64,000 nucleotides of DNA from Halichondria panicea. Taxonomy: Eukaryota > Porifera > Demospongiae > Suberitida > Halichondriidae. The position numbers and the translations under genes are program-made. The notes below the pieces were generated by a model. It had not been told where the DNA came from. It did not search any database and saw only the letters and a list, made by a program, of their open reading frames with translations. Each line of letters starts with the position of its first letter. The first letter of the stretch is position 1. This document shows, in pieces, positions 7,961-58,400 of this stretch. The stretch spans positions 4,184,979 through 4,248,978 of the forward strand of contig NC_087383.1 of NCBI RefSeq assembly GCF_963675165.1. The letters run 5' to 3'.

Positions 7961-8006
7961 TCATGTACTGTCGATTACATCCATATCCACGTGTTCAAAA
8001 GACAAT

Positions 8007-16770: not shown

Positions 16771-18265
16771 CTGCATAAATGCACATGACGTTACAGAACA
16801 CCCAATCAATTTGAGAGAAAGGAATGAAGACACACAATTAAGATCACGAGTGGAACTGGTTACGACCATTAAGAGAAACCATTATGTATTATAATAATAC
16901 TGTAAATTGTTTGGCCACTACATTAACACTTCATTTAGCAAATTTAAAGTATAAGTATATACTCTGTTCCTAAGTTATTAGTACAACCCATGGATATCAA
17001 TGTGTGCAACAGTCATGCACATAATCTAATTTCATTTTTATTGGGTAAGTATAGAGCTAAAGTATCCTAAACCAATAATTATTAATAGCTGCTCAACAGA
17101 ATCAAGTGGGATCTAAAATAAAATACTTGCCTTTTTTAGTGAAGAACTCCTTTTACGAATATATTTTGTGGCAGTTTCTTTGCACACAGTATCATCATCA
17201 TCATCATCATTATTTCGACCACACACTCTTTTCCTACATGCTCTTTTGTTGGCAATTCAATTCTGCAATGGAAGAATGTATGTACATCTAGATGAATTTT
17301 ATAGTCAATCAGAAAGTGGTGCACTCACTAAAATGAACGAGTACAGGATCTACAATTGTATATATACCAGTACATCATTGTACACTATCATGGTGAAACA
17401 TAGTCAAATACATGGTTAAAATAATGAGTGTGTGGGGGGGGGGTGAGAAGACCAATAGTGTACGTATAAGACTAAGCAAATTAACAACGTGTGCATGCTT
17501 ATAGAAATTACATTCCACCATGACACACTTACCCAATGCATGGACATAAATACAAAGCTATAATATTATCGGCTATATATATGCGATATTTACGACTATA
17601 ACCTATAATTATATGTACGGTGAAATAGGCGCAAAGTAAACTTTTCAGTAATTAGCTAGGGGGTGGGGTATGAAATACTGGAATACTATAATTATAGACT
17701 TCACACCGGCCACAGTGCACCACAACTACAACAAAAGTAGCCTCAATTCCAGGCCAGGAGGGTTGAAGGGTTGGAGTTGAACTGGTCAGCTACCAATGAA
17801 TCAATATGATCAATGAGAGTGAAGGACCAATATCATGTGACATTTACAGCGTACTTCACTAGTCACTGGGGTATGACAATGAAACAGTCAAAAGGTCATA
17901 AAATATCACATGGGGTTATCATTCACGCACTTCATCCTTCCCCTGTTAAAAGTTTCCACAAATAACTGATCAAAAAGAGGAGCTAACTCTTCAGCATGGT
18001 AAAAGTGGACCTTATTGACCCTGTCGTACATATATACGTATCCCCCTACACACTCTTTGTAACTTTAGGAGGTACGTTGTATAGTATTCCCATGCTAGAA
18101 CTCAAAATCATGTCACACATTCTAGATAGGAAGTTGACCCATTCCCAGTGGGAAGTGGGACTGTCAACTACTTTAGCTACATGAGTGTATAATTAATAGC
18201 CCGGCTAAGAGGTTTTGGTCAGGGCTACAATGTACGCCTTCAAATGTTATAACAACTTTATTGGC

Positions 18266-18505
18266 TTATCCAGCTGTTGAACCATAAGCAGTTATATCAA
18301 ACTTCTCCTTGGACACATTATTCATCACATCATCAAATGCCTTAGCAATTAACAGTTTGCTTTTCCTGCTATGCATAAACTCCACTTTAGCCGTCTTTGA
18401 CTTTGATTCCAGTGATCCTGCTACAGTCTGCAGACACTGTTTCAGCTCAGCTAACGTCACTGTCAAGCCACCATGCCACGTGGGTGTGCTATTATCTTGT
18501 ACAAG
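18266..18505 (-). CDS. Unassigned exon-like ORF in the 13.9 kb insertion
   Basis: A minus-strand frame open for about 80 codons with protein-like composition: GGLTVTLAELKQCLQTVAGS, SKTAKVEFMHSRKSKLLIAK, AFDDVMNNVSKEKFDITAYG, ending TAA at 18266-18268. No ATG within the open part, so it would be a terminal exon. I do not recognise the family. Position near the right end and orientation mirror a possible second coding strand of the element. Confidence 0.3.
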   Translation of the reverse strand, partial: LVQDNSTPTWHGGLTVTLAELKQCLQTVAGSLESKSKTAKVEFMHSRKSKLLIAKAFDDVMNNVSKEKFDITAYGSTAG

Positions 18506-18664
18506 TAGCTATGGTGATGAAGACACTCCAGCTGCCTTCTGCACTCGTTGTATTAGCATCAGTCTATCCAAACATGCGATAATTATAGATTAGATACAGT
18601 CAGCACGCACATACCCATCTACAGTACACAGGTAATACTTGATTACAACACATAAACAACTATA

Positions 18665-18890
18665 GTACCTATAATAGAGCCTGGAAATAACATGTGAAGC
18701 CGGTGATTCTACTAAACCACACCCAAACGTCATATCTGACCGTAATAAAACATACATTAAAAATATAGTTTGAGGCAGCCAGTACACGAATGGCCCATTT
18801 CAGGGCCACAGTATCTGTGCCAAACCAAATGGCCGGTATATCGAAATGGCCGTACTTTAGAGAGCTGGAATAGCGAGAGTTTACAGTATC
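18665..18890 (-). mobile_element. Truncated copy of the CAGTAGACTCTCG TIR element
   Basis: Reverse strand shares TAGCGAGAGT end, CCGTACTTTAGAGAGC and AAATGGCCGGTATATCGAAA with the intact copy 59485-59928. Confidence 0.65.
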
Positions 18891-18975
18891 TTTTGCCAAG
18901 TTATGTTATCGCTTCTACTAATTAAAAAGCGAAACATAGATGAGATGAAAGTTCTTTTAAACAAGCGTTTTAAGT

Positions 18976-19227
18976 CTATGTACACAGAGCATATGCAATC
19001 CGTTCTTTCCTAGGTGCAGCGCGGTCGCGAGGGTAACAACGTTCATCTAGTGTGAGAGTGAATACTGTCCCCCGAACAAAATTCACTAGTCGAATAATGT
19101 CCCTCCCTGCAGGGTGAATTATCAGCAGCAGAGATATTTGTTCCAACTGGTTTCTCCAACCAGAAAGAGTTGAATACTTTAAAGTGGAAAGAGGTAGTTT
19201 ATTTAGACCCCTCAGGGCAGCAACCAT
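18976..19227 (-). CDS. Unassigned 83-residue ORF in the 13.9 kb insertion
   Basis: ATG-initiated frame with mixed composition (LSGWRNQLEQISLLLIIHPA, GRDIIRLVNFVRGTVFTLTL) ending in TAG after YALCT. Not recognised. Could be part of a minus-strand cargo gene or chance. Confidence 0.3.
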   Translation of the reverse strand: MVAALRGLNKLPLSTLKYSTLSGWRNQLEQISLLLIIHPAGRDIIRLVNFVRGTVFTLTLDERCYPRDRAAPRKERIAYALCT

Positions 19228-20399
19228 GCAGGAGTATAAAGCTGATGAGGATTGAGACTATTTCTCCAATTTCCCTGCATGGTTAATATTATGAGTGTAG
19301 TCAGTATAAACTTTGTTGCAGTCTGCAAATATTAACATCAATATTTACAAGAGGACATGCACTGCTCACTATATAAGTTCGTATATCATAACCTCCGACG
19401 TTACAAATCTCTACATTCCAAGAACGGCACACTAAAATGCTGCAAGAGTCTCTCCCGGCAGATACGCTTTTCTCACTTCTTCCCCCCTCCCCCTGAGAAA
19501 TGGTGTGGCTCCCAGACTATTAAAAACGCCCGGATACGATCTATAAACCAATGGATACAATAGTATTTAAACTTGGCAATACCTGATTCTATTATCACAC
19601 ATGCACAGGTAACTCCAGGACATCTCCCCTGCAGTATAATCTTGAAGGTGACCAGCAAGGTACAGCTAGCTAGCTTAGGAGCCAGACTGCACAATAACAA
19701 CATGGCCCTGCATGCACTGTGAGGGACAAGTGTGGTCAAAGGTCACGCAGCCCGTTTGACATGCCCCCGTGACGTCTTCATTTACTTCCTTCGTGTAATT
19801 AGAAGGGCTGAATTTTGTTACAAACGGCGTGCCATAGTTTACAGCCCGTGAATACGGGCCTGTATCAGGGCGTAGCACCCACGTCCTGTATACAGGCTGT
19901 AGCTTATGCGCATGCGCTAGCTTGGGGCAGGATGACGTCACCTGACTACAAAAAGAGAATGAGACAGACAGAGCTCTGAGAAAAAATCCTGCTTCTTGTC
20001 ACAAGAGGAGCTGCTGGTCCAAAAAGACAAACTTGAAAGAGAACTATACACTATATAGTCTACCTGTGAACAGAAAAAGGTGAAGCTGTAGCAGCATGTT
20101 ATTATATTAAACAGTTATATTATTTTTATTGAATTTTCTCATAGCAGTTTGTGTTCCTCTAGTTCCACAGCTATTTTCAAATCTGTAGTGAATTTGACCT
20201 CTAGTGCAGTTGGCAACAAAGGTCTGTAAATTTCACCTCTGCTGTATGTTTATAAATTCAGGTTTGCACGTTGTTATGGACTTTTGAAGCTGGAACACTG
20301 GCCAATTTTACAAGGTAAACGTTTCGTTTTGCTTCCTTTGAAATAATCCTCCTCATCGTAGGCTCCCATCTGAAGTTTTTTCACTTTTAATAAAGAGGT

Positions 20400-36861: not shown

Positions 36862-39785
36862 ATGGCAGAAGCTTGTGAAAGCAGAGAATGTGAGTGATTA
36901 AAGTATATAGGCTATCCAGCTTATAATAGTGATGTGTCAAAAATGCATTTTGACATGTATATATGACTGTGTAGACTGCATGAGCTGACAATAATGCATG
37001 TTCACAAATGCAGATCTTACAATTTCGGTTTTGAAGAGAGAATTTGAAGTAACTGATTCTCAGTTAGACACAAAGGTAAAAGAAATTGAAATACCTCAGT
37101 TAGCGGCATGTTTCGACAACACCGATGACTATCTTGAAAAGCTGGAGCTATCACCTGGACAGCAAACTGACGTGACCGAAGAGAAAGCTAAAACACGTTT
37201 AAATCGAACTCAAGCTGGAATGAAACTTGCCCTAAAATACTGGCTATACAAGAACCAACTGCAAGCCACTTTCCGAGCTCTGCTACTCATCATACTCTCC
37301 CTGCTCAAAGGAGACGTTGCTGTTCAAGTGTGCAAGTACTTGTCTGACAAATGTGAGTCTGAATGCACGTATATATTAAATGCAGTCTAGTTTATTACAC
37401 ATACAATATACAGATACGCTCTCATCGTACAAAAATGATCAGCTGGAATTTCCCTACACGTACATGTATTATCTACGAAATCACTACCAAACTCAAGCAT
37501 TTGGATCATCCACACAATGGCCTCCCGTCCCGATAACGAGAATTTTCAAATTGGCCATGATTCAGAAGGAGAATGTACAGAGACGTAGAATTGATGATGA
37601 ATTTGTTACGCAAACAATAACTGGAAGAGTTGATGATATATTACAAAAGAAAGCCCCTGTTTGCATAGAAGATATTTTCACTCAATGTGAAAGAAGAAAA
37701 CTTGTTTTGATTGAAGGAGCTCCCGGCTCTGGAAAGAGTACCCTTGCTCTACACATCTGTCAAGAGTGGGCAGAGGGAAAATTATTCCAAGAGTTCGATA
37801 TTGCAGTCCTCTTAAGACTCAGAGACCCGCTAATTAGAAAAGCTAAATCAATCGATGACATCCTCCCCTGTAAAAAGTCGGCAGTTGCACATCAGGTAGG
37901 ACCTAGTATTGTAAACAGTGATGGCAAAGGTGTACTGTGGGTGCTTGATGGATGGGACGAGCTTCCTTCTGACCTCCCTCGAGACTCAATCCTTAACAAA
38001 ATTATCCCCTTGGATTCGTGTAGTGAGACATTACTCAACCAATCCGCTGTAATCGTAACATCTCGACCATCATCTTCAGCTGAGCTCCACCCACTAGTTT
38101 CATCCAGGCTGGAAGTTTTGGGGTTCACTCCATTTGAACTGGAGCAGTATTTCACTGAGTGTCTACAAGGCGACACAGAGTCAGTACAAATTTTACTGGG
38201 AAAAATTCGAGAGAATCCTGTTGTAGAAGGCAGCTGTTACCTCCCCCTCAATGCTTCCATTGTAGCCCATGTTTTTCTCTCTGGAGACCACTCAATCCTC
38301 ACATCTAACCATGCAATATTCACTTCTGTGGTTAGATTTAACTTATCACTCTACATGCAAAATCGATTAGGTGTAGCTCCAAAGAAAGCTATGATCAGGT
38401 CTTTAGATACCATTCCAAAAAGGATTAGAATTGTTTTCCGTCAACTTTGTAAAGTGGCTTATTACGGAGTAATAGAGAATAAAGTCACATTTACTGCTGA
38501 TGATTTTAAACTTTGTGGCACCTCAGATAAAGTTGCTGAAATTGGTTTGCTTCAAGCCGTACCAAGCATTCTTGTTGATAATCGAGAATTTTATTACAAT
38601 TTTGTTCATCTTACGATTCAAGAGCTACTGGCTGCAGTTCACATATCTCACATGTCCTCAACTGATCAAATGGCTATCTTTAAGAAAATGTTTGGTCACC
38701 CTCGATTCACATCAGTGTTTAAGTTTTATGCGAAGTTGACCAAGCTCAGGGCACATCGGCCACTTATGAGCTTGCTACCAAAAGTAATTTTTCCAAGTTC
38801 ACCTCGAGGAATATTGGATCTAATCACTGAAATTTTGATGGAAAGACGAAACTTGCAAATTATTTCTCTACTCCACTGCCTGTATGAAGCTGAAGACACG
38901 TCGTTGTGTGTGTTCGTTGCTAGTCGTCTCGGTTTAAAACTAGATCTTTCTCACACTCTGCTGAGTCCCCTAGATTGTCTCTCTATTGGGTATTTTTTGT
39001 CACTGGTTTGTATGAGCAATATGAAAGGAGGTTTTACAGTTAATCTTACTGACTGTTGCATGAGTGATCAGGGATGCAAATTCTTGGTTCATGGACTAAG
39101 AAAGTGTCTTTATTCTCACTCTAGGAAATCATGTAAACTTGATCTTCTTCTCTTGGCTAACAGCATCGGTTGTGATGGAGCACAGTTCCTAGCAGAAATT
39201 CTCCGGAGTACTAATGTGTTACGTAAGCTAGACTTGTCTGAAAATGAGCTAGGCAACAAAGGAATTTCATTACTCTGTGAGGCTTTGACAGTAAACACAT
39301 CAGTTGAGGTGTTGTACCTGAAAAAATGCTCGCTGACTATTGATGAAGAGTGTGGTTCAGCAATCTGTCAACTACTAAGCAGAAATGTTTCGCTCACATT
39401 TCTTAATCTCTCTTGGAATCATATCACAAACTGTCATCACATAGCTGCTGGGCTCGCAAACAACAAAACATTAACAACATTACATCTATCTAATTGTGAT
39501 CTGACCGATCAAAGTGTGCAAGATCTGTCTAAAGGCCTGAACAACTACATTGAGGAACTGTACATCCATGGATGCAACACAATCATAGAAGAACATGGAA
39601 TGCACATTCTCACAAATTGTGTTGCAAATCTTACTGCATTAAAACACTTGTGGATCCCCAGCACTTCCATGAACCATGTGTTTATAGAGGTCAATAAAGA
39701 GAGGAGAAAATATGGACTTTCAGAAATCAAAGTGACTTGTAAGTGCAGTTGTAATATAAATAGTTGTACGTATTTCCATGGCTAA
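36862..39785 (+). CDS. NLR-B: DEATH-NACHT-LRR receptor
   Basis: Three exons with the same phase plan as NLR-A and NLR-C: 36862-36889 (MAEACESRE), 37014-37352 (DEATH-like, 339 nt) and 37414-39785; 912 residues. DEATH domain ends LLLIILSLLKGDVAVQVCKY. NACHT P-loop GAPGSGKS at about residues 224-231, Walker B LWVLDGWDELPSD about 297-309, IVTSRPSSSAEL after it. LRRs of the ribonuclease-inhibitor type fill the last third (KLDLSENELGNKGISLLCEA, TLHLSNCDLTDQSVQDLSKG). The C-terminus (KVTCKCSCNINSCTYFHG) differs from the other two and contains TTGTAAGT, so a further intron there is possible. It is the most diverged of the three and lies on the opposite strand. Confidence 0.92.
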
Positions 39786-41614: not shown

Positions 41615-44600
41615 TCAAACAAAAGCTACATTAATCCCAGTTAGTCCACTTCTTTTCCTCTCCTTGTTAGCCTCCCTGAATATTGTCTTGATACAGAAAC
41701 TTAGGTTGTTGGATATGAACACTTTTTTCAGTTCAGAGCAGTGGGTGGCTAGATGTCTAGCAAGTGTCTTCATTCCCTCTTCTGTTATTGAGTTGTTACC
41801 CCAAATGTACAGTATTTCAATATTGTTGATAAGTCCAGTTGATAGCTCCTCGATACTCTCATCAGTCAGCCTACATTCATTTATCTTCAATGTTCTCAGA
41901 GTTTCATTGACTGCAAGTCCAGCAGCAATGTGACGACAGCTATTCACTGTATTACCAGTCAAAGAAATGTGTTTTAGAACATTGTTTTTTTTCAGAAGTT
42001 GATAGAGGGCAGCTCCATTGTCGTCTGATATTGTTAGTGAACAATGATTCAAGTTCAGGCTATTTAATGATGTGTTAGTTGACAAGGCTTCACAGAGATT
42101 CTTCAACTCTATGTTACCAACAGGATTGCGTAACAAAATGAGAACCTCAAGCGCAGAGTTTGTGCTCAGTAGTCGAGGGATTGCTCCGTGATCGCTGAGA
42201 AATAGTGAGCAGTTAGAGAGATTGAGAATCTTTAATGAGGTGTTAGCTAACAAGGCCTCACAGAGTGTGCTAAGTCCATAGTTTCCAATGGGATTACCAA
42301 GTAAATCTAATTCAGATATCAAAGTAGTGTTCTCAAGCACCTCAGCGATGTGATGTATTCCTTCTTCGTGAATACTATTATTAAAAAGGTAAAGATTAAT
42401 CTTGGAGTGAGTGTGGGGACACTTGGAGAATCCTCGTGCCAGAAATTTACAGCCCTGGTCATCAATGGAGCAACTACCAAGGCCCAGTTTTAGTACATTG
42501 CTGTTGGTACAAATTGATGAAAAATAACCAACGGAGAGACAATCGATAGGATTCATTGCAGTTCCACAAAGATTTAGCTCATGGTGAAGGAGATTACCAA
42601 CAAATGTACACAGTGATAAGTCTTCAGCTTCGTACAAACAATTGATGAGAGACAACAAGAGGGTTTTTGGCTCATTATACTTCTTCTCTTTTTCACTCTT
42701 GACAACGTTTCGGACCAGATCAAAAACAGTCGCTGGAACTGGACACAAGAATCGAGGTAACTTGCTGAGGATTGGTCTACTAGTTCTCAGTTTGGTGATA
42801 CCAGCATAAAACTGAAAGACTGCACTGAATCGAGGGTTACCAAACAGATTCTGGAAGACAGAAATTTGTTGCTTTGGAGACATGAGAGAGATGTGGACTG
42901 CTGCTAGTAGCTCTTGAACAGCCAGATGGAGAAAGCAGTAGTAAACCAGACGACCATTTCTAAAGATACTGGGAACAGTTTGTAATAATCCAATGTTTGA
43001 AATATCTTTTGGAATGGAAAGATTAAAAAAGTCTTCGTCGCTAAATGTTACTTTATTTTTCTTGATCCCATGATATGCAAGTTGACACATTTGTACGGAC
43101 TGTGTTCTGATTTCCGAGGGCAGAGAGTCTGGAGATGTGATGTCTCCCACTGGAGTGGTCTTCCCCAATCTATCCTGGAGGTATCTCTTGAGAGAGCTTT
43201 GGACAACTGATGTGAATATCCCGTGGTTGGATGTGGGGAGGGAGTGGTTGTCGGAAAGGAAGCAATTAACGACAATGGAAGCATTGAGGGGGAGGTAGCA
43301 GCTACCTTCTACTACTGGGTTCTCTCGAATTCTCTCCAGTAGAGTCTGAACAGCTTGTGAGTCACCTTTCAGACACTCGGTGAAATACTGCTCTAGTTGA
43401 TGTGGAGTGAATCCTAATACCTCCACCCTGGACGATACTAGTGGGTGGAGTCCAGCCGAAGATGACGGTCGAGATGTTACAATCAAGGTGGATTCGTGTA
43501 GTACTTCTGTTTGTGACATGTGTGGTCGAATTAGTTTGTTGCTGATTGAATCTCTAGGGAGGTCAGAAGGAAGCTCGTCCCATCCGTCCAGCACCCACAG
43601 TACACCTTTGCCGTACAGCGATATAATTATAGCCTCTATGTCATTAGCCATGTTCCTATCAATGCAGGGAAGTAATTCAGCAATTGTCTTGGCTTTTATA
43701 ATGAGTGGATCTCTCAGTCTCACAAGGACTATAATATCGAACTCTTGAAACAGTTTTCCCTCGGCCCACTTTTGACAGATGTGTAGAGCAAGGGTGCTCT
43801 TGCCAGACCCAGGAGCTCCTTCAATCAACACAAACTTTCTTGCATCTCCAATGTCAGAGAAAATGTTCATCAAGTCAATTGGTGTCTTCTTATGTAAAAT
43901 ATCATCGATTTTTCCTGTTATTGTTAGGCTAACAAACTCTTCATCAATTCTTCCTCTCTGTATTTTTTCCTTCTGAATCATGGCCAGTTTGAAGACTTTG
44001 TTTGTTGCGACGGGAGGCCATTGTGTGGCTGATGTGGATAGTTGTGCTATGTAGCGACTTCGTAGGTAGTCCCTGTACAAGGACAGCTTGGGGTTCAGCA
44101 GGATCTTCTCTCGGGAAGGGGGACACGAAGTGGTGTCTGAAGAACAAAACAATAGATAAACAGCATTCTTAGTGTCAAATTGATTGCTTCCTAGCGGGTA
44201 TACTGTATTTTGCAGTTCCACGTACATGTGTATGGTATCACAAATGTGATACCATACACATGTACATAGCGTGGTCATTGTCAAACCACCCTAACCACAC
44301 TTTCCCACACATGTAGATCTTGTAACTCACATTTGTCAGACAAGTACTCGCACACTCGCACAGCAACGTCTCCTTTGAGCAGGGAGAGTAAGATGAGTAG
44401 CAGCGCTTGGAAGGTGGCTTGTAGTTGGTTCTTGTTCAGCCAATATTCTAGGGCAAGTTTCATTCCGGCTTGAGTGCGATTTAGACGTGTTTTAGCCTTC
44501 ACTTCGCTTACGTCAGTTTTCTGCCCAGGTGACAGCTCCAGCTTTTCAAGATAGTCATCAGTGTTATCAAAACATGCTGACACTTCAGGTAGATCTGGTT

Positions 44601-45181
44601 CCTTTATTGCTGTATTGAGCTGCTCATCAGTTAGTTTCATTTCTATCTTCAGATCGTCAATAGTGAGCTCTGTACGAGTGAATTCACAATAACAATTTTT
44701 TAGAGTTATATAAATTATTGGCACATTGGGTATAGACTACCGTATAACGGGTATATTATTTCGAGGGTATAAACCTTCACGGTTTTCACTGATTAAGCAT
44801 GTAGACTACTGCGAACATCTATATCCACGAATATTAATAATTGCATATACACAAAAGTTAAATCAACGAAATTCTTTCGAGCGATCTTTCCGCGAAGGTT
44901 TATACCCTCAAAATCTACCCATAAATTCATAATTATGGTGCTATTATGGGTTTTTTCTGGCGCACAATGCACGATGCATAATCAGGGTTGATACCATAAA
45001 GAAGTTTTAATTTATTAATGAATTCATATGGTGCTATTATGGGTTTTGTCTGGCGCACAATGCACAATGCATATAAGTTGATACCATATTAAAGAAGGTA
45101 GGCTGGACTATTTATAGTGTACACTGTGCTAGCTCTAGCTGGAATCATGCCCTCACCTTTGTTTTGCTCTTTAGTGGCCAT
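41615..45181 (-). CDS. NLR-C: DEATH-NACHT-LRR receptor
   Basis: Three exons on the minus strand: 45181-45157 (MATKEQNK plus G), 44669-44331 (DEATH-like, 339 nt, LLLILLSLLKGDVAVRVCEY) and 44136-41615; 961 residues. NACHT P-loop GAPGSGKS, Walker B LWVLDGWDELPSD, IVTSRPSSSAGL, then LRRs to GLTGINVAFV and stop. From the NACHT winged-helix region (ERIRENPVVEGSCYLPLNAS through LQDRLGKTTPVGDITSPDSL) it is almost identical to NLR-A, while LRR surfaces differ. Intron 2 (44137-44330) contains a 20-bp perfect palindrome. The start codon is 96 bp from the end of the 10.1 kb transposon. Start chosen because phase, length and sequence match exon 1 of NLR-A. Confidence 0.92.
44223..44264. repeat. Perfect palindrome in NLR-C intron 2
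   Basis: Arms TACATGTGTATGGTATCACA and reverse complement, separated by only AA. Confidence 0.85.
44738..44932. mobile_element. MITE-like repeat in NLR-C intron 1
   Basis: Starts TACCGTATAACGGGTATATT; GAGGGTATAAACCTTC and GAAGGTTTATACCCTC are inverted. Relatives at 61745 and 62106-62203. Confidence 0.55.
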
Positions 45182-45277
45182 TTCAACATCTATATTTTGG
45201 GTTGGTATATCATAGCCCTTATGGTTAGCACGCATGTGCAAGCAGTCCAATACCAGGATGTGGTTGCAGAGATGTGG
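45182..45277. promoter_or_regulatory. Residual upstream region of NLR-C
   Basis: Only 88 bp plus the 8-bp target duplication (45270-45277) separate the NLR-C start codon from the transposon end. Its other half is 55422-55493 in front of the dehydrogenase gene. Without the transposon the two start codons would be about 170 bp apart, so this was probably a shared bidirectional promoter (inference). Confidence 0.5.
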
Positions 45278-45323
45278 CTGCAGTATGGCAAGCGGTTTGT
45301 AACATAAGTATTATTATGACGTT

Positions 45324-45385
45324 GACGTGCTTTACAGCATGACGTGAGGGCCTTACGGCCCTCACGTCATGCTGTAAAGCACGTC
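45324..45385. repeat. 29-bp perfect palindrome at the transposon's left end
   Basis: Arms 45324-45352 and 45357-45385 (GACGTGCTTTACAGCATGAC...) with a TTAC loop. Part of the subterminal structure of the 10.1 kb transposon; CACGTCATGCT-like words recur at the right end. Confidence 0.9.
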
Positions 45386-45409
45386 ACGTAATGTAGGATG
45401 TGCAAGGAA

Positions 45410-45571
45410 CCGCGCATGCGCAAAGTGGAAAAGGTATGTGGACCTCCTTGGAGCACAAGTGCTACTGCAGTTATACATGGTGGCTGGATGCCGCGCATGC
45501 GCAAAGTGGAAAAGGTATGTGGACCTCCTTGGAGCACGAGTGCTACTGCAGTTATACATGGTGGCTGGATG
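45410..45571 (+). repeat. 81-bp tandem duplication
   Basis: Units 45410-45490 and 45491-45571 differ at about one position (CACAAGT/CACGAGT). Each starts CCGCGCATGCGCAAAGTGG. The period is a multiple of three, so frames stay open through it; this is not evidence of coding. Confidence 0.9.
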
Positions 45572-45978
45572 TCCCTCTATATCAGAGACTGTTAACTCTC
45601 TTTCCTGATGTCATGGTGTTGTGATGATGCAAAAGGTGTAAGCGGCTCAACTTTAAATCATAACGGTTGATGTACAAACAGACAGTGGAAGCCTTACTCT
45701 CAACTCTTCACAAGTGCAGTGCAGTTTATTTTTCCCCTCAATCATCACAACACTGATGTATATACTAGCATTGGTGAATGTGCTATTTGGCTGGTTATTA
45801 ATCTCCTTGTGGAGGAAATGCAAGTGCCCTGTGAAGAAACCTTTTACAGTAGCTTTCTCAACTGAAGGCAGAGCCTCTAAAATCGGCTCCCTCTCTGACT
45901 ACACAAGACTGTGGTGATCTGAATGATCCACAGAGGAGAACACTATCATGAGGTGGGTATAAAGTATATTATGTGTGT

Positions 45979-46320
45979 ACAGTATCATCGACTCTCGCTA
46001 TTCTGGCTCTCTGAAGTACGGCCACCTCAATATACCCGCCATTTGGTTTGGCACGGATTGCTAGCTATATAGTTGTTTATACTACACACTTGCCTTGAAA
46101 TGTATACCTGCCAGTTCTGGCTGCCCCTAACTATATGTGATATATACGTTTTTATTTTTATTACGGCCGGATGTGACGTTTTGGGTGTAGTTTGGCAGAC
46201 AAGAGCATTATCTTTGCACCGCAAAATCATGCAGTCATTAGATTCGAGGTAGGGTCGTTTTAGCCGCGGCTATTTTCTGAAATGTGGCTACCTCGCTATT
46301 CTTGCCAAGCTCCACTGTCT
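45979..46320 (+). mobile_element. Diverged copy of the CAGTAGACTCTCG TIR element
   Basis: Collinear with 59485-59928: CTCTCTGAAGTACGGCCACC, ACGGCCGGATGTGACGTTTT, GTCATTAGATTCGAGGTA. Nested in the 10.1 kb transposon. Confidence 0.75.
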
Positions 46321-46426
46321 AAGTGTGGCTGGATTAACAATGTATGTGCATGGTATTGCATGCATGTGTGTGTGCAAATTAATAAAGTGTGTTTTATCGT
46401 TGTGTTTTCCATTCAGGTTTTTGAGT

Positions 46427-46970
46427 TGATTGAATCATAGATTGAAGAGTTAGAGGGATAGGAAGCGGAGTGGTGCACGTGATGATTTTACATTGAATCT
46501 GCAGTGGAGCCTCGAAAATTATCCGCGTTACTCCCTATAAATGAGGCTATTAAGCACATTTTTGCCGGGTAACTCCCAAAGCTGTGTTTCCTCGAGAAAT
46601 CATCTCTTTCAGCAACTTATAACACGCCTAGTCCATGAGCCACGTGTAGTACTTGCTAATGACTGACCACACCCAGTAAAAAGAGACTTTCCAATAAAGT
46701 TATATATGTTCCCAAGGCTGTTTTAGAGCTATTGGAACATGTAACGTGTAAGCGTGCTGGTTATGACTACTACAATAGGTATAGACCTTGAAATATAAGT
46801 GAGTTGCACGGACTAAGCACAGTTACTTGTAGTTTATTATGCACTGCATGGGTGTAGAAATAGATATTGTTGTGGTGGCCTCGATTAAACTGCAGCGTAT
46901 ATAGCGCAGATGTTACTCGAGATACCAACCGTTTCCTATCCCTATAACTCTTCAATCTATGATTGAATTA
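46427..46970. repeat. Inverted-repeat-bounded segment
   Basis: Left AATCATAGATTGAAGAGTTA GAGGGATAGGAAGCGG is matched inverted by 46929-46968. About 540 bp, non-coding. Confidence 0.65.
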
Positions 46971-48069
46971 AGCTGTTGAGATGCATGGTAGTGTGCGGCC
47001 ATTTATAATAATAATGCTGTATCCAGCGTGAGTTTTTAAGCCTTGGCTATTTTCTGAAATAGCAGCTTGCCTGATAGAGTGGACATGGTCACTATAGGTA
47101 GATTGTTGTGTTAAGATCTGTACGCTTATATATAATTATAATTATGCTTCGATCAAGTCCAGCTCATGCAGTAACGATTGGTCTATAGATACAATAATTA
47201 TATTTAATCTGCTATAATTTATTTATACCTTTTACAGGAAGCTAGAATTATATTAGCTGTTCCTGGTATAACTGCATTGATCACCTAAAAAAAGCTTGCT
47301 GAATGGAACCTCATGCACAGACTGTCAGAGCTCACTTCACTTTGCATGGTCCAGTGATAGCTATGCATACACGAGCTGATAGCACCAGATTCTGTGATGG
47401 CAGTCCTAAATTTAACTTGGCCATTTTGGTCCACTGCGCATGCACTGTGTAAAAGCTCATAGCCATGGCAGCAGAACCTAATTTCATATACGCACCAGAT
47501 TCTAAATTGAAGTTGGCCACTTTGGTCCACTGATCCATCAGCAATTATGTATACCAGGTCTAAGATTTGTTGATTCACCTTATAGCTGCTACAATACCAT
47601 GCATATGCACCCTCAATAGCCTTCACTCCTTATCCAATGTGCAACAAGTATCCAATATGAATGGAAGTGTTAGAACTAACGGTTCTTAAGAATTCCAGGT
47701 AATAAAGATAGAGAAAGAAAGCAAAGCAAATCTGAGTACCTGAGTTTCTTTAAAGTGGTTTGTCAGATATTATGATACTGTTGAAATTGGTGTATAGGAC
47801 ACTACCAACAAGAAACGATAATCTGTCGTTTAATGGAATTATATATATACACAAGGATAATAATAATCGGCAACTACTAAAGCCGCTATATATAGAAATC
47901 CTGGTAAGACTGCAATGTTATGCTATATTTTTAGCTCATAAAATTAATGTTCACTCTGGAATAATAAACTGTATATAGTAACTGAACTCTAAACTCGTTG
48001 AACCTATTTACTTATAAATCTTATAAATTATTATTATGTATATTTTATCCTCACGTGATTTTTGTGTTT
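46971..48069. other. Non-coding interior of the 10.1 kb transposon
   Basis: A local duplication (47383-47433 and 47494-47532, ending GGTCCACTG) is the only structure seen. Minus-strand ORF 47285-47626 spans it and looks non-coding. Confidence 0.4.
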
Positions 48070-48078
48070 ATGCCATGC

Positions 48079-48137
48079 TAGCCTCGTTGTTCGCCTAACT
48101 GTTATAAAAGCGAAAACTCGGCCTGGGATCGAGGCTA
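48079..48137. mobile_element. 59-bp TAGCCTCG mini-element with 9-bp target duplication
   Basis: Starts TAGCCTCG, ends CGAGGCTA, and contains the TTATAAAAGCGAAAACTCGG segment of the right TIR of 31070-32178. ATGCCATGC flanks it exactly (48070-48078, 48138-48146). Confidence 0.8.
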
Positions 48138-48189
48138 ATGCCATGCATGTGTTTTCTGAAATAAGATTTAATTTGTCACTGGTGTCTCA

Positions 48190-49399
48190 GAACTAACTAT
48201 GGTCCTATATAGTTGTCAGCGCATGCTTAAAATTTTCATTGTATTTGTGTCGGCTAATTAACCAATAATACATTGTATTATAGAAAATTCACAGATACCA
48301 TATGCCGGTGGAAAATTTCGAGGTGTTTTTTAATTTCGCGTTTTTTGTGGGTGGCTGCATGCAGAACACGAAAATTAGAACCCGTGGAAGGCTTCATATG
48401 CGCATGCAAGATAGGTGCCACAACACCCTACTACCCGCGAAATGTTCTAAATATTGAAAATTTTCCACCCGTATGGTACATATAGTATACACATTATAGA
48501 GAGCTGCTTCACAAGGAGAGTTGCCATGCAGTTGTGCTGCAGCATGATTATAGTGACCCAGCTAGGGCATGTAACTTCATGGATGATGATTGAATGCCTC
48601 AAATTATGAAGGTTTAGCAGGCTGCTGGACCTCTCTGATATTCTAGACCTCTATTTGTAACTCATAATTTATGTTTGAGAAAGGTAGATTCTCTTCATGG
48701 CTCTGAGCTGCCAGAAACAACACTCGAATGAACAGATATACATATACACTCCAGTCCTGTGAGTATAGGAAAGATTACCAAAGACAAAAAGAGGGTTTCA
48801 ACCTTACCTCACACTATCCAGTCTCCTCCCTTAGTAGAAAAGAGGAGCACTGTTGGGATAGCTGGATATTATCATTGCTCTTGTGCAGAGAAGTATAGAC
48901 ATTCTATAATAATATATGTGTACATGCGATGTAAATTAAATGTGTCGTATTAAACAGGTCATTGTCAATCCCCCTGATGATGGCACCACCAAGTCCTCTA
49001 GCTCACATGCACTCTTCACTTCATCCACCATAAGATAATTATACCAATGATGGATCTAGATCTTTCCAAACAAAAATGACTTGATATGATAGAACCACAC
49101 AACAAATCTGACCTTGACGAGCTTTAATTGTCAAGATTTGTAGCCTCCTCACTTGTTCTTCTGTCTTCAGAATAATGTTTTCTAAATAATTAAGAGCCAT
49201 TCCAATCGATTAATGATAAACGGGATACTGACTGCTAGTACGATAGTACACGAATATAAATGTGAACAAAAATATCCATTAGTCTAATTTTTAATCTACT
49301 TGAATGACTGGCGCATGCATGCGCAGACAACTAGTGCAGGCCTATAGTTGTTCACCTAAACGTTATAAAAGCGAAAACTCGGCCTGGGATCGAGGCTAG
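48190..49399. mobile_element. Second copy of the 1.1 kb TAGCCTCG element, left end lost
   Basis: Collinear with 31140-32178 (GAGCTGCTTCACAA, GTTGTGCTGCAGCA, GATGATTGAATGCC, GAGGAGCACTGTTGGGATAG). Right TIR ends CGAGGCTA at 49399. A nested repeat with CCGGTGGAAAATTTCGAGG / ATTTTCCACCCG ends is at 48297-48480. Sequence 49400-50560 holds no gene I can see. Confidence 0.75.
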
Positions 49400-50564
49400 C
49401 TATAATATAAAGCTACGACAATTCAGATGTATAGATTAAATTTGGAATGTACCTTGCCATGTCTTGAACATGCACACGCATACATTGCATGCAAAAATAG
49501 TTTTTTTATGCATGAGTCTAATCTATAGCTACACAATTGTATTGGCCGCATCTCCTTTAACACGCAGGAAGAAACATCAATGATCATTAACTCTATCTGC
49601 TGCCATTGACTATAAGTTGGACTTACTATTCCTCACGAATACTATAAACTATTAATTTTTATCTTTACACTATATACTTGTAATAATTTATACACTTGTA
49701 CACCTATCTCTGGTGGTGTGTTAATTGTTATTATTGTTGTAACATGCATGATATTACTACATGTTTTACTTCATTGAAAGATATTTTCCCCGCCTATAAT
49801 TATAGCATGCAGTATGCAAGGATATCGGGTACACTTACCAGTACTATAGGTTTTGCGTTATTGTTGAGAATTGATTATTTAATAAACTGATTAAATTTGC
49901 TGATTATATAAGCATGTACCGCGAACATTTATATGCAAGATTAACGCATGCATGCATGTATGCTGCAGAAAGGCTGCGCTATTCTGTGAAAATTAAATCT
50001 GCGAAAACCTTTTTATTAAACAGTCATCGTGCGAAGTTTATGTATACCCACTATATACAATGCTCGTAAAAAATTCATTTTTGGTACATGTATATTGAAC
50101 TGTAATATGCATGCTAGCTATTCTTTTATGCTCAAGTTAACAGCCTATATTATAATTGCCTCCAAAACACGGCATATAGGCCCCATGTCGTTGCACAATT
50201 AAGTAACACAAACTAATAATGGCCATAAAATTTATGCATATGACCTCTATCTATTAATTCTACAATATATAGGAGATAATAAATTATTACCTACCATGCA
50301 GTACTTCCGGGCCTACAAAATATGTTTATACTATAATTATGACTCGTATATTGACCTGTACGTATTTCAAAACCTCCCTATTATTCTAGCTCATAAATGT
50401 AATAAAAGTGCCTATTATCAGTGCAATCTGTTGAAGGTGTGCATGCATGTGCTCCATTTATAGGATGCTTATATACGGTCTCACCAAAGAAAGTTTGGCA
50501 TTATCAAACTGCCCGTGTTGGTGAATCCTGCTGAGGAGCGTGTTGGTGGCTATCTTGTAGATAT

Positions 50565-50812
50565 TGATTGGCAATATGTCGACTAATCTGCTTCAGCGAT
50601 TTCTTCACTTCACAACTGGGAGCAGTGTATTGTCTGTCAGCAGTATCATCGTACAATTCAATCGTCTGAGTGGGCCAGGAGGCCCTGTGCGCACAACACA
50701 TGTGATGCTTTGCTAAAGCTACCAATCTCGTATGCCAATTATAGCGAATTTCACGGAAAGTGGATGGCAATCCTCAACGACAATGACCTTTGTTGCATGG
50801 GTAATGAACTGT
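50565..50812 (+). pseudogene. HECT-domain C-terminal relic in the 10.1 kb transposon
   Basis: Frame 1 gives FLHFTTGSSVLSVSSIIVQF, and after a one-base shift near 50675 RRPCAHNTCDALLKLPISYA then NYSEFHGKWMAILNDNDL. This matches LRFVTGAATCSSLQLSVLF, RRPIAHTCSPSIELSTSY, TYKEFVDEFKACL of the relic at 12966-13174, active-site Cys included. It points at the minus-strand transposase that ends 580 bp further on. Confidence 0.75.
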
Positions 50813-51390
50813 TTGTAACTTCTTTCTGAATGGACCATGAACTTCTTAATTAAGTATCGTCATTATCATTATGTTACTATTCCCTGAATGGACCTTGAAC
50901 TTCTTAAGTTTAATTATTTGTGCTGATCACATCATAATTGTTTTGGTTATATACACAGTAAAAACAGATAATTATGTTATAATAACATAAAACATCTCAA
51001 ATAGAATGCATCATTTGAAATTATTTTAATGTAGAAATGACATAAATTTCTGTCATTTTAACACTAAAATACGATGATGCATCCCATATAACATATGTGT
51101 TTTTGCTGTGCTATAGCTAGCTTACTCTCAGTGTCATCCTTCATTTCAATCAATCACCTTCATGGATGTTCATAATAATTATATGATTATCGTCAATTCT
51201 AACAATAACTCCCTTTCATTATATAGGTAGTATTGTTTTGGCTTATAGCTATGTACTGCATGCATACTCTCATTAATCATTTTTCATGTTGATAATTATG
51301 AGCTTTGTTTACTGAGCATCACAATGGCATGCATCAAAATAATAATTATGTAAGAATAACATCAAAATTGAGTCATCATGGTCATGTTTT

Positions 51391-54300
51391 ATACCGTAAT
51401 CGTTGACATAAACTGCAAAACTTGTTCATACAAATCAATGCCAAACTCATCAGAAGGTGCTAACGGATTAACAGCTTGCTGTAGGAGAGCAAAATTCTCT
51501 GAACTTAGCCTTATTGGCACCTCAGGCACAACTATAGAACGTCCCTGAGACGGGATGGGGCCTTCCATATCAATTCCATATTCTTCCTCCACATTCTCAA
51601 AAAAATCCAAAGCTGCGAGTCGTGCTGCAAAAGTAGTGCCCCTGTTGTAAACAACTGGTGTGGAGACTTATGGTGTGCAGTTCGGATTGAGTGATGGTTC
51701 CATCCACCAATGAACAGTGCAAGTGCCTGATTAATACGTGGAATGAACACATAATGAAGGGAATACAGATGCGTCTCATTCAAACAGTCTAATAGATCCA
51801 CTTGTTCCATAAAGTAAAACAGCTTGTAAAAGAGAATAGTCACAGCGGTGCATGTCCCTCCATATAGTCGCTCTATGCGTTGATTATGGACCGAGGCTCC
51901 TACAATCACACTCCTCATATCATGTCCTAACATGTGACGTGCGACCAATACATTTTCCCCACCTTGGTCCATTCTTATAATTATACGAGATGGCAGCTGA
52001 TGCTTTTGAACTGCACACAAAAATAATTCGTACACGGTTGACGATTTATTATTGCCACAACACTTCAAGAAAGTCACCAGCCTACTGCAGCCGTCAATGC
52101 AGCCACGAGTGACGATTCTCCATCTAATAAGCTTATGATGTGAATCTGAAACAAGATAATTCAACCATAATTAATTTTAATGTGATGAAAATTAGTCAAT
52201 ACTATAATGAAAGCACCGCAGGTGCTGACGCCTCGATGGAGATGCCAAAGCTACATAACATAAAGCTACTAATAGCTTTTATACACATGATAAACATTTT
52301 TGATTTTGCTGCATGCAAACTTAGAGTGGGTAATGATTGACCATGATTATTTAAACAATAAAACAATCGATGCCAAAAGTTCAAGTCTAAAATTAATGGC
52401 TGCATCAGCAGAGCCTTGCAGCTCTCTTCTCACTCTTGTAATGCAGCTACCAATAGCTAGCATTCTAGTGCAGAGCTAACTACTAAGTAGAGTAGCAACA
52501 CTCGGTAAATAAGTTTGGCTACGTGCCCGGCTTCTGAAAAGACTGCAATGGCATTCCAAGTAAGCAAAACTAGGCGTAACTCGAGAACGAAGCATTATTT
52601 TGCAAATCCACGAATTAAAATCCAAGTAAACATGACTATAGAAGCCTATAGAAACTCTTACTTGCACTTGATTGCAGTCTACACACACATAGACACACAA
52701 ACGTATACCTCGCTTGCGCATGCGCACCGAGGCATAATAATGGTCTAACTGGTTTGGGTTTACGGGGCTGCCCAGGGTAATTAAAAGCGTATCACATACG
52801 GATCAGTAATTGCACAGGATTCAAACAACAGCTGCGGCTAAAAATATTATTAAAATTGCTGAGAACGGCATCATAAACGATTAGGTTACTCGTATAAGGG
52901 ATTAAGAACACTCATAACAAACACAGGCAAGGGCCAATTAGAAGCCTTGCCATTGCTTGTTACTCGTACTACTTGATCAGAGGCTGCAGCTATATACGAT
53001 ATTTTGCTAGCAATTAGAATTCGAGAGACCAGAAAGGTGTTCATTACGTCTACTAACGCTCCAGTAAAATGAGACCGCTTCCTTTTTTGCCTTTGGAAAG
53101 GGCTACTTTTAACCGTGCGTAAAGAATCTCACGCACGGAATAACTCTTCTTTGATAAGAATACACAAGTCATAAATTAATACTCGCGCTTATTTATTAAT
53201 GTTACCATGCAGACTCAATTACAAACACATCTATGACTGCTTGTCGCGGCTAAATGTTTGGCATCCATCCACGCATTATGTAATTTGTGGTTAGTTCTAC
53301 GCTGGGACAACTCTTTGATAAGTAGCATACCAGTTCAACAGGAAGTGGTTTAGCAGGTAAGTTCTTTTCACCTGCACAAACTCAAAGTCTACCATGTGAA
53401 AGTCTACACTAAAAAGCTGCTACTTAGCTAGCAGCTACTGTAGATACCAGTATCAATATGACTCAGAGGTGATTACGGTTAAAGTTTATTGAGGCTACTA
53501 TTTGAGAGCGGCTTTTATCGCACTGAAGATGGGGATTAATTTTAGAGGCTACTACTCTTTGAGTGTGGGCTTTATACAAGGGCAGATTTTGACGAATATC
53601 AAAAGGATGATACCGTATATTTATTCGATCTAAGGTGACACTTTTAAAGCCTAATTTTGGAGGTTGAAAAATTATGTTGAAGTCTTGGTGTTGCATATTT
53701 GATCGTTGTTTCTCTATAGAGGCTATATAGTTTGACCTCTATTTAGAATGTGACATACAAAAATATTGTCAACACAGCAGTCGCTACAGTATAGCCGGAC
53801 CACGAATATTTTACCCAGCGACCTTGACTACCTTTACCTGCAGTGCAAGCAGAAAATAAGATCCACGAATGGACTTCCTCCCGCTCCCCCCCTAAACATC
53901 TGCATTCAGGAATATGGAAAGGCAATCTCAAAACCCACTAGAATTTATCCTAGATCGACCTTCGAATGAACACCAGTCATGTCTCTGTTATTAATTATTA
54001 AACAGGGTGTTGAAATAATTATGGTGACTTTTAGACCCCCCTTATTTCCACTCGCTACTTCAAAGTCCTGTAAATGACACCCTGCTGACTAAATAACCCG
54101 AAATAACCTGCTATACAGTACTTTTAGAGGTTACAAAATTGCATATTATGGAGGGCCGTGCATGTCCCATATTTGGAGGGCTGCTTTACATGGATACCTT
54201 TAGCTATTTTCCAACAATCAACATCAAGCTTTTGGGAGACTTAAAGAAGGCCTGTAAGGCCTTAAAGTTATTGCGGGGGACAAGATAATCCCTCTTTCCT

Positions 54301-55178
54301 ATTTTTCCTATAATTATATCTACATGTATATGGTTCCAGTTTTCAATATGCATTTACAAAAACTTGTACAAATAATAATTATACCCACCAATATGCCAGA
54401 GGGAGTTTGGACCAGCAACTGAGTAAGGCTGTCGTCGACTAAGACCACCCATCAATCTTGAAGCTGCACTTAATGGGTCAGATGACCTTAGAGAACATCG
54501 GACTCTATCCCTTGACATTAATCCCATTCTTCTCAGCCTTCCACATACCATCATAATGACTCTTAACGTCGGGGACTCTGAATGAATTTCCTTGACAATT
54601 CTGTTGAGCTCATCATTTGATAAAGTTGTTGCAGAGTCATCCAGCAATTCAAACTCAACTCGTCTTCTGTATACACTAGTAAAACATGTATTACTTATGT
54701 TTATCAGTCAAAAACTTAATTATATATGGTCATACAAGACACACCCAGCAGGGCCGCAATTTCAGTCCAGTTAAAATTTAGTGATGATAGGTACACTAGT
54801 TGTTCCTTTTCAATTTCAAACTTAGGTCTTCCTCTTCCCAAGATTCTTCTAGCAGCTTGATACTGGAATTTGCTGGTTTCTACATCCAACATCTCTTCAT
54901 ATTGCACCCACTGTCTGTGTACACTTCTCAGGCACTCTAGTAGATGAGCCAAATTCGATTGATTACTAGCTCATCTTCTTCTCCAACTTCAGAACCCCCT
55001 TGCAGCATTTGATCAGATAGTTGCATGCAAGTACTCAGACAAACTTCTAGTCTTGACAAAACATAGTCACAAAATTCTCGATTCGCTATTCATGTTGATG
55101 TTCTGTGTTCTCTAGGAATCTACTGACATCAATAAAGTATTGACTCCATGCTCCAAACAATTCATCCTGCTCAGCCAT
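51391..55178 (-). pseudogene. rve (D-D-E) transposase of the 10.1 kb transposon, frameshifted
   Basis: Homologue of the 8007-10231 transposase. Start ATG at 55178-55176 (MAEQDELFGAWSQYFIDVSR). Pieces follow in several frames: LLECLRSVHRQWVQYEEML, the helix-turn-helix FNWTEIAALLGVSCMTIY, then RRQPYSVAGPNSLWHIG. The donor at 54388 and acceptor at 52146 enclose a 2.24 kb intron at exactly the same codon position as in the other copy ([14 protein letters not shown]). The core keeps D in [10 protein letters not shown] in RMDQGGEN and E in [11 protein letters not shown] shift near 51630 separates it from the acidic tail ([16 protein letters not shown] to FMSTITV). Breaks near 55090, 54960, 54700 and 51630 mean it is not functional as read. 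Confidence 0.85.
52146..54388. other. Intron of the minus-strand transposase
   Basis: No supported gene. Contains GCGCATGCGCACCGAGGC near 52720 (fragment of a dispersed repeat) and a short CAGGGTGT/GACACCCTG element at 54003-54085. Confidence 0.5.
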
Positions 55179-55245
55179 TCTAGCTAGCTAGCTTGTTATG
55201 AAAGCTAAGGCATGCAAGGTTGCTTATGCGCATGCGCATATGAAA

Positions 55246-55345
55246 AGGTTATAAGGTCACGTACGTCATGCTATAAGGTTATGTACGCCACGTTATAAGG
55301 TCAGGTACGTCATGCTGTATGCCACGTTATAAGGTCACGTACGTC
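55246..55345 (+). repeat. ~22-bp subterminal tandem repeats, right end of the transposon
   Basis: Words TTATAAGGTCACGTACGTCA / TGCTATAAGGTTATGTACGC repeat four to five times. Typical of transposase-binding subterminal arrays, by analogy. Confidence 0.75.
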
Positions 55346-55493
55346 ATGTTATAACATTCAAACGTCATAACGCCATCATTTCTTTATGTTACAAACCGCT
55401 TGCCATACTGCAGAGATGTGGCTGACTGCTACACCCCCAAAACTTGTTCTAGACACACCCCCACAACTTGAGGAGGTTGAATATTATTTTAAT

Positions 55494-58400
55494 ATGAGTC
55501 ATCTTCCAGAGAATACCTTCAGGCTGGTAAAGGAGAAAGAGGGGCCTTCTTACCTTTACAAAGAGGTGCCTGTACCTGCTCCAGTTGGGGATGAGCTGCT
55601 AGTGAAGGTGGGGAAGGTTGCTCTCTGTGGAACAGACATCAGTCTCTATCAGTGGAACAGTGGTGAGCGATCATCTGGCCGGATATCCTATTCACTATCT
55701 ATGTTTGTGCTATATTTACGATTGTGTTTCCATCCCTACTGCATTTGGCAATTGTATTATATAGTGTATACTGAGGTCTAGATGCACCATCTATTTTGTT
55801 GTTTGCAGTTGCTAAGGAGATTGCAGAAGTGCCTTTTACTCCTGGTCATGAGATGGTTGGACAGGTTCGTAATTTCTGTTCAATGGAGTTGCATGTACTG
55901 TTCTCTAAGAAATATGCGCTGCCATACAGATAGTGTGTGTGGGTCCAGAGGTTCCTCCTGAGTACACTATTGGCAGGCGCGTGTGTGTGGAGAACCACTT
56001 CTACTGTGGACACTGCTACCAGTGCACTCATGGTAATAATTTCCATCAACTATTATATTGATATTTTAGTTACTCATAATATAAAGTGGATTAACAGTTA
56101 ACAGCCATGCATGCATGCATGCAGGTGATTACGTTCATGCGTGGGCTTATATATCATTTTGTTTGTGTGTACAGACCTTCGTCACATTTGTCAGAATCTC
56201 AACCAGTTTGGTTATGGTAAAGGAACGAAACATGGCGGACTGTCAGAGTACACTATTGTGCCTGCGAGATATGCCTACTTGCTCAAAACACAACTGGAGG
56301 ACTCAAAAGCAGCAATACTGGAGCGTAAGCTTGTACTCATCTCTAGTTTATTCAAGAGATAATTATATAGAAGGAGAAAACCATTTTTGCGTTTCATCCA
56401 CGGGAAATGTCACCCTCGAATTCAAAAGGTTCTCATTGCATTTCCCATGTGGTGACAAAAAGTATTTCGAGTTACTAGGAGATCGAGTTAAGGTTTAATA
56501 TTTTTACCAAATCAATGACTTACTCTTATAGTTCGTATGTATTGGTAATCATTAGGTCTTTCGAATTATTTTACAGTAACAGTTGGTTGTTTATAAGGTT
56601 CACCCCAGCCCCCCCCCCCCCCCACTAGATGAAACCCTGACAGTAACAGTTGGTTATTTATAACCTAAAGGCATAACTTATTATATTCATCTCTCACACA
56701 GCCTGTGGAGTGGCCCATCAAGCGTTAGAAGCTATTGAGCCACGTGGAGAAAGCATCCTGGTTCAAGGTGAAATCCGTTGGTGCAGATCAAGACATTAGA
56801 TACTGGTTGTTTTTGCAGGATGTGGGCCAGTTGGACTGCTAGCTATTGGCATTGCAAAAGTGATGGGAGCAACTAAAATGTGAGCTCATGGTACAAAGAA
56901 CTAGTCATTAAAACTGGCCTGGCTGTAGGAATAGCCTTAACGCAGTTTGATATACAAAATGATTATATGCAGTAGATTTTTTAGTTGATGAAAAGTCTGG
57001 TGCTACTTTAGATTGGCCACGGACATCAACGAGAGTCGCCTGGTGGTTGCTGGTCTGATGGGAGCTGACGTGCTAATTAATGGAGGGAGGGAGAGTCTAA
57101 GGGACAGAGGTTTGTACCTACCAGTGTTAGAAATTACTCACTGTCATCGGTCATTGACCGGACATTTAATTAGAATGACCATGCATTCCTGCATGTGTCC
57201 GGTCAGTATATGCATGGCCACTGGCCAGGCACAAATGACATTTGACCATACAGTCAATAAAAATTATTTCTAACATTGCCTGCATGTAAGCATGTTAATG
57301 GAGGGAGGGAGAGTCTCAGGGACAGAGTTTTGTACTTTAGGCATGTTACTGGAAGGAGGGAGAGTCTAATAAAGGACAGAGGTTTATACCTGTAGGCATA
57401 TGTTAATGGAGGGAGGGATCGAGAGTCTAAGGGACAGAGGTTCGTACCTGCATGTAGGCATGTTAATGGAGGGAGGGAGGGAGAGTCTCGAGGACAGAGG
57501 TTCGTACCTGTAGGGCATGTTCTTTTCAGAAGCAGCATAGAATTTTCGGGAATTTATGATTAATGTGCAAGCCTACATGTACAATTCAATTTAATAGTTG
57601 TGCTGTCGAGGGTGGTAATTAATTATTCTATAAATTTGCGCACAATGAATAATTTGTTGTACTATAATAAACATATCCTATACCAAGGTACATCCTCATG
57701 TATCAGATGGCACCTATACGTGTCCCCTGTCAGCATTTTTTATAGTATCCCCCTGCAGTGCTGGAGGAGACAGACGGGAATGGAGTTGGTAGACTCTTTG
57801 AAGCCACCGGGGCTGAGGCCCTGCTCAACAATTGCTTCTCTCTGGTCAGGTAGGCTGAGACTGAGGTCAAGTGTGGCCAGGACCTCTAATTACAGAGACT
57901 TTTAGGGCTTGTGAATTGTTAAGGATTCTTGATTTGAACTACAGTGGAACCCCTCTATAACGGACACCTTTGGGGAACAATGTTTTGGCCTTTATACAGA
58001 GGTGGCCTTAATTTGTTGAGAGGTTGTTTTGTACACAAACTGTTCATTTGGGACCTGGGTGCCTGGCCGTTATATAGAAGCTGGCCTTTATTCGGAGGTG
58101 GTTGTTAACAGAGGTTCCACGTACTGTACTTGTACTGTAGAAACTGGATTATTGCTCTAATGGGGTCAATAGCATAATTATGCACTTATATATTCGAGGA
58201 TGCGCTTATACTGCAGTCATTTTCGAGCTGCATCCTGCAGTAACCGGATGTCTCTGTGACGAGAAAGTGAGCGAACAGGCAATCCTGACTAGTCCATATT
58301 ATAATTATCATATTATGTACAGCTAGTTCATTTTACCAGTGTTTATCATAATTAATCGAATCAATTCTAGAAAAGCGCTTCAATTCGACCTGCAGTTGAG

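Follow-up and report, generated by a model that had tools for sequence, protein, structure and literature searches.

A complete transposon with IS3EU/GingerRoot features between an immune receptor gene and a dehydrogenase gene of the sponge Halichondria panicea

Does a transposon that comes to rest between two closely spaced, divergent genes break a promoter that both of them use? The question is raised by a stretch of 64,000 nucleotides from the sponge Halichondria panicea (the window; C7:4184979-4248978 of its own assembly, G000, which comprises 131 Mb in 39 contigs), and feature coordinates below are those of the window unless a contig is named. The original prediction placed here a complete transposon of about 10.1 kb with perfect ends, between the start codons of the immune receptor gene NLR-C on the minus strand and of a dehydrogenase gene on the plus strand, and such an element is present in the sequence. 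Its exact ends, its affiliation and its consequences for the two genes are less straightforward. We consider it highly probable that the insertion is a young, full-length, frame-broken element of the IS3EU/GingerRoot type that is flanked by a 6-bp duplication, CTGCAG, and sits within a tandem repeat of the host.

Ends of the element and its target site

A perfect inverted 30-mer is found at 45278-45307 and 55384-55413, and AGATGTGG is present twice, at 45270-45277 and 55414-55421. These features had been read as 30-bp terminal inverted repeats (TIRs) and an 8-bp target-site duplication (TSD) that defined the insertion to the base. However, when G000 was searched with 143 bp from the left side and 224 bp from the right, the best matches halted 2-6 bases (left) and 4-6 bases (right) inside the ends first claimed. 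As evidenced by the line-up of the flanks, homology among the copies ceases at TATGG...CCATA, and agreement further out is at chance level; among the other G000 copies examined, none whose end could be recognised has CTGCAG outside it. Because the homology of the siblings stops at TATGG/CCATA, the TIRs are 24 bp long and CTGCAG is a TSD of 6 bp, and as this hexamer is its own reverse complement, the apparent inverted repeat grows to 30 bp. With its ends set by this comparison the element measures 10,124 bp (45284-55407; transposase gene on the minus strand). Its left TIR, TATGGCAAGCGGTTTGTAACATAA, is located at 45284-45307 (plus strand) and the right one, a perfect complement, at 55384-55407 (minus strand), while the two copies of CTGCAG occupy 45278-45283 and 55408-55413, in the same 6-bp geometry as in sibling copies. 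The ends had thus been placed six bases too far out.

The supposed 8-bp duplication lies outside the 6-bp TSD and belongs to a 14-bp tandem repeat of the host. To the left of the element this repeat reads CAGGATGTGGTTG, CAGAGATGTGGCTG, CAG (45254-45283), and the left flank by itself already holds a second, imperfect 14-bp unit. To the right the host sequence is CTGCAGAGATGTGGCTG, in which a further CAGAGATGTGGCTG at 55411-55424 is the source of the claimed TSD. Removal of the element together with one CTGCAG restores a host sequence with adjoining 14-bp units. As AGATGTGG is part of the host unit, a second duplication mechanism is unnecessary for its repetition. The 17-mer CAGAGATGTGGCTGCAG occurs a single time in G000, so that in this one exact form the tandem unit has no second occurrence there. 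An assignment to hAT or another superfamily with 8-bp TSDs was considered and is ruled out, given that AGATGTGG falls beyond the 6-bp TSD and within the host unit, and that the transposase is of the integrase type (rva_4). Searches with the flanks found no empty site elsewhere in G000, where an assembly gap could hide one; the left flank gave three matches (its own site, an adjacent tandem copy of a portion of the flank, and a paralogous exon) and the right flank two (its own site and a paralogous exon).

The 6-bp geometry recurs in a family of copies. A pattern search with the 24-mer returned 33 sites in G000 at up to three mismatches, and none with the reversed control. Eight copies carry perfect 24-mers at both ends, with TIR pairs assigned by position, and five of these eight show an exact 6-bp duplication: CTGCAG in the focal element, CGGACT in the copy on C3, CGTCCG in the copy on C4, AGGCCG at C1:3142171 and CGGAAG at C1:8209434. 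In a ninth copy, C4:4072046, one end is degenerate and the duplication agrees at 5 of 6 bases. Note that at C1:8209434-8239558 a distance of 30 kb lies between the ends with the matching CGGAAG; since copies are usually a third of that length, a nested insertion is suggested.

Several observations weigh against so uniform a picture. The remaining three of the eight two-ended copies, C1:16820386, C1:17016978 and C1:17369385, have no matching duplication, and neither has a sister copy at C4:3497737-3508608 (AGATAG/AGATTA, read by eye). Of 17 stretches fetched, four (L020, L023, L024 and L026) are without a recognisable end, L025 matches at chance level only, and the ends in L017, L021 and L028 are degenerate. 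For the three C1 copies (16.82-17.38 Mb; loci L003, L005, L011-L013 and L016) the flanks are common to them in inverted orientation, with 99.5% identity over 185 bp and 99.8% over 591 bp, and since flanks recur inverted among these copies, their sequence suggests that rearrangement between copies accounts for the mismatched duplications.

Transposase, family and spread

The transposase gene is read from the minus strand. Its 5' coding part (54719-55178, start codon at 55178) is broken in frame twice and shows a sub-threshold match to HTH_23 near its end. A second coding part follows at 54389-54698, with a provisional junction between the two, and a likely GT..AG intron (52146-54388) leads to the catalytic exon at 51535-52145, which matches Pfam rva_4 with an E value of 9.7e-62. 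The C-terminal part runs on in a different frame (51392-51667). Given splicing of the putative intron, the catalytic D, D and E residues are all present. The catalytic exon also has weak similarity to rve (E 0.005) and IS481 transposases (E 0.006), in both cases under the curated cut-offs.

According to a paper of 2023, the termini are invariably TA..TA in complete IS3EU families and the TSDs usually 6 bp, and in GingerRoot families the TSDs are 6 bp long and the ends TA..TA for the most part (PMC10045372). The focal termini, TATGG...CCATA, show the same TA..TA trait, and 6-bp TSDs are found both here (CTGCAG) and in a second element of the window (GTTTAC). Termini, TSD and the integrase-type transposase together point to a member of the IS3EU/GingerRoot DNA transposons. 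These families are alike with the focal element in TA..TA termini, 6-bp TSD and possibly a DDE transposase distantly similar to IS481 and rve, and the focal element is unlike them in its size (10.1 kb, some 6 kb of it beyond the transposase gene), in its probable intron and in its broken frame. A point against the assignment is the spacing from the second D to the E, 31 residues as opposed to 34 in the other element of the window.

That second complete element, at 7857-19836, represents with C4:2652716-2664607 a sister subfamily. The two resemble the focal element in 20-21 of 24 TIR bases, in exact 6-bp TSDs, in a length of 11.9-12.0 kb and in an rva_4 transposase, but differ in a catalytic exon that is only about 56-58% identical; in C4:2652716-2664607 the catalytic frame is open. 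The window element is 11,980 bp long, with 24-bp TIRs (one mismatch at one end), the exact TSD GTTTAC and a broken transposase frame, and it interrupts intron 1 of another NLR gene (exon 1 near 21637, minus strand; exon 2 near 7580). A stretch of 563 bp at C12:2731739-2732301 (L038) has related 24-bp ends and a CGTCCG duplication and is a short non-autonomous derivative.

The copies on C3 and C4 are 99.0-99.5% identical to the focal element over the aligned parts. The three-way alignment, for which the C3 copy was fetched minus its final 76 bases and in which about 1.26 kb are missing from the C4 copy and 239 bp are extra, comprises 8,701 gap-free columns; 8 substitutions are private to the focal element, 8 to the C3 copy and 17 to the C4 copy, and at one column all three differ. 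The small number of its private substitutions makes the element look young.

The break in the 5' transposase frame has the identical sequence, with no indel after the start codon, in all six aligned copies (focal, C4, C3 and three from C1), and three of the six have an additional stop in common in this part. The catalytic exon is open and 99-100% identical in seven loci including the focal one; for this and for the more distant relatives described next, the best 150 of 176 candidates in G000 were scored and figures refer to the matches listed. Relatives of at most 58% identity are numerous, many of them with open frames, and in some related elements the ends agree with the 24-mer at 21 of 24 bases, some of these having open catalytic frames. 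Because the frame is broken alike in all six copies, the simplest reading is that the subfamily probably spread in trans after damage to its own transposase. Against this, a shortened transposase may be made from a later methionine, although loss of autonomy is likely. A related intact transposase most likely moved the frame-broken element in trans to the 14-bp tandem repeat that lies between NLR-C and the zinc alcohol dehydrogenase gene, where staggered cutting would have led to duplication of the 6 bp CTGCAG, and any change of expression that followed would be hypothetical. The NLR array described below shows no enrichment for the family: among the matches listed, C7 1.51-4.25 Mb holds four rows (three elements), where by a rough estimate from 151 matches about three would be expected from its length.

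Towards both ends the element has conspicuous subterminal sequence. On the left (45317-45386) this is a perfect 30-bp hairpin (45323-45386) with five TGACGT/ACGTCA sites, on the right (55238-55367) a set of direct repeats with spacings of 22, 22 and 34 that holds four, so that 9 of the 30 such sites in the window are crowded at the two ends. They may be transposase-binding sites. They also resemble CRE half-sites, and it is speculation that they influence the neighbouring genes. Close to the left end, 81 bp are duplicated in tandem (45410-45571) in the focal copy but not in those on C3 and C4. Within the element, a 52-bp repeat is present at 48086-48137 and 49347-49398; the end of it, CCTGGGATCGAGGCTA, recurs beside the copies L019, L027, L040 and L041, as if the family often inserted there.

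The gene pair and the promoter question

NLR-C starts at 45181 with a short first coding exon (MATKEQNK; 45157-45181, minus strand), whose splice phase is compatible with the next exon at 44669. The remaining coding region (41615-44669, minus strand) comprises this N-terminal domain exon and a NACHT-LRR open frame of 891 residues. Its N-terminal domain gave no notable Pfam match and no PDB sequence match, the AlphaFold model was poor (mean pLDDT 50) and a fold search with it gave no significant match; identity as a death domain is not proposed. On the other side of the element, the first exon of the zinc alcohol dehydrogenase gene (ADH_N; 55494-55662, plus strand, its end read by eye) begins with the start codon at 55494. 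The start codons are now separated by 10,312 bp, and by 182 bp once the element and one CTGCAG are removed. The close head-to-head pair split by a transposon thus stands as proposed, with a distance slightly above the 170 bp first estimated. The insertion leaves NLR-C with 102 bp and the dehydrogenase gene with 86 bp of host DNA ahead of the start codon, and the transposase start codon at 55178 faces the dehydrogenase gene across 315 bp.

How much does such proximity say? In a study on Amphimedon queenslandica, 18,054 genes (45%) are arranged head-to-head, and for 11,379 genes the start sites are no more than 1 kb apart (PMC4773876). As head-to-head pairs are ordinary in a compact sponge genome, closeness alone says little about a shared promoter. 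The bidirectional promoters described there are like the present case in head-to-head orientation, short spacing and a compact animal genome, but their 5' ends are backed by RNA-seq, whereas here start codons were read from the sequence (PMC4773876). From the close spacing a shared promoter of NLR-C and the dehydrogenase gene is possible, and that the insertion uncoupled the two is a hypothesis built on it.

More specific evidence comes from the NLR array to which NLR-C belongs. In a search of G000 with its NACHT domain (best 150 of 241 candidates scored), at least 65 matches covering residues 2-154 of 154 with 72-100% identity are located on C7 at 1.51-4.23 Mb, an array spanning 2.7 Mb. Among the scored matches NLR-C, the one with the highest coordinate on C7, is the edge member at one end and L031 (C7:1512734) that at the other. 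The 5' flank of NLR-C was set against those of 14 other NLR genes, which were also compared among themselves: 12 array genes (12 of the 65, picked non-randomly from matches of higher identity), L031 and the NLR on the left side of the window. All 14 have an exon that matches exon 1 of NLR-C; a plus-strand NLR at 36995-39785 (open frame 37380-39785), which lies between the two minus-strand NLRs of the window, yielded no such match in a search of the window. Among the 13 non-edge genes, 12 have at least 54 bp of 5' flank in common with another gene and the thirteenth 24 bp, values that recent duplicates inflate. NLR-C has at most 14 bp in common with any gene compared, and L031 at most 8 bp. By this comparison NLR-C lacks the usual array flank, so that any proximal promoter it had was in the private gap into which the element has since inserted. 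The array flanks fall into at least two classes; the edge copies NLR-C and L031 belong to neither, yet are alike at the start of intron 1.

With these data, one reading that we hold tentatively, as possible but doubtful, is that the gap was a real shared promoter and has been split, leaving NLR-C with its 102 bp and the left end of the element and the dehydrogenase gene with its 86 bp and the right end, facing the transposase start codon at 315 bp. The spacing of 182 bp, the private flank of NLR-C with its 14 bp or less of homology, the crowding of TGACGT/ACGTCA sites at both ends and the base rate in the Amphimedon study (PMC4773876) all speak for it. On the other hand, two CACCC boxes lie within the remaining 86 bp, on the dehydrogenase side of the insertion, so that the core promoter of this gene may be intact, and the partner genes are seemingly not conserved. 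At C7:3689497, a paralogue of the dehydrogenase gene has another gene opposite it, identified only weakly, with about 226 bp from start codon to start codon (read by eye). That gene shows only a sub-threshold SapB_1 match and no PDB match, and may be an acid sphingomyelinase gene. Upstream of L031 the nearest recognised exon is that of a multicopper oxidase more than 1.6 kb off, with nearer, unrecognised exons possible. The pairing of NLR and dehydrogenase therefore does not appear to be conserved in the paralogues.

We give a similarly guarded, rather doubtful standing to the alternative that NLR-C, as the outermost gene, lost the array promoter by an accident at the array edge and may be silent or decaying, so that the insertion was tolerated with no effect. 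Its position as the highest-coordinate match and a flank unlike those of the 14 other genes fit this account, but the frame of NLR-C is open over 891 residues and exon 1 and its splice site are intact.

A more elaborate version appears unlikely to us. According to it NLR-C, having lost the array promoter, was driven by 182 bp of unique DNA that also served the dehydrogenase gene, and a young, maybe segregating element cut that promoter, giving the dehydrogenase gene the transposase gene (315 bp) as its new head-to-head partner and both genes TGACGT-rich ends. Finally, the original prediction taken whole, in which a transposon with 30-bp TIRs and an 8-bp TSD (a geometry like that of hAT elements) broke a functioning bidirectional promoter and uncoupled the genes, draws on the perfect inverted 30-mer, the repeated AGATGTGG, the 182 bp between start codons and the missing array flank of NLR-C, but is highly improbable in view of a boundary part already refuted by the absence of an outer CTGCAG in sibling copies and by their 6-bp duplications, an integrase-type rva_4 transposase and the apparently different partners of both paralogues. 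Our own expectation, held much less firmly than the structural account of the element, is that each gene keeps whatever core promoter there is in what remains of its own flank and that the effect of the insertion consists in the loss of shared regulatory sequence, if any.

A literature search on IS3EU/GingerRoot, on sponge NLRs with transposons, on transposon insertions in NLR clusters and on insertions in bidirectional promoters showed, among the titles listed, none on such a case. The event itself is of an ordinary kind, well preserved, and the type of family was already known. The analysis fixes to the base the boundaries of a young, perhaps polymorphic transposon beside an immune receptor gene and assigns it a likely family, and it offers an example of how a palindromic TSD inside a tandem repeat can mimic longer inverted repeats and a TSD of another length. 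Should the insertion segregate, a comparison of individuals that carry it with those that lack it would be a direct test of whether the short divergent gap acts as one promoter, and if the shared-promoter reading is true, the locus would offer a natural experiment, with and without the element, on promoter sharing for an immune receptor.

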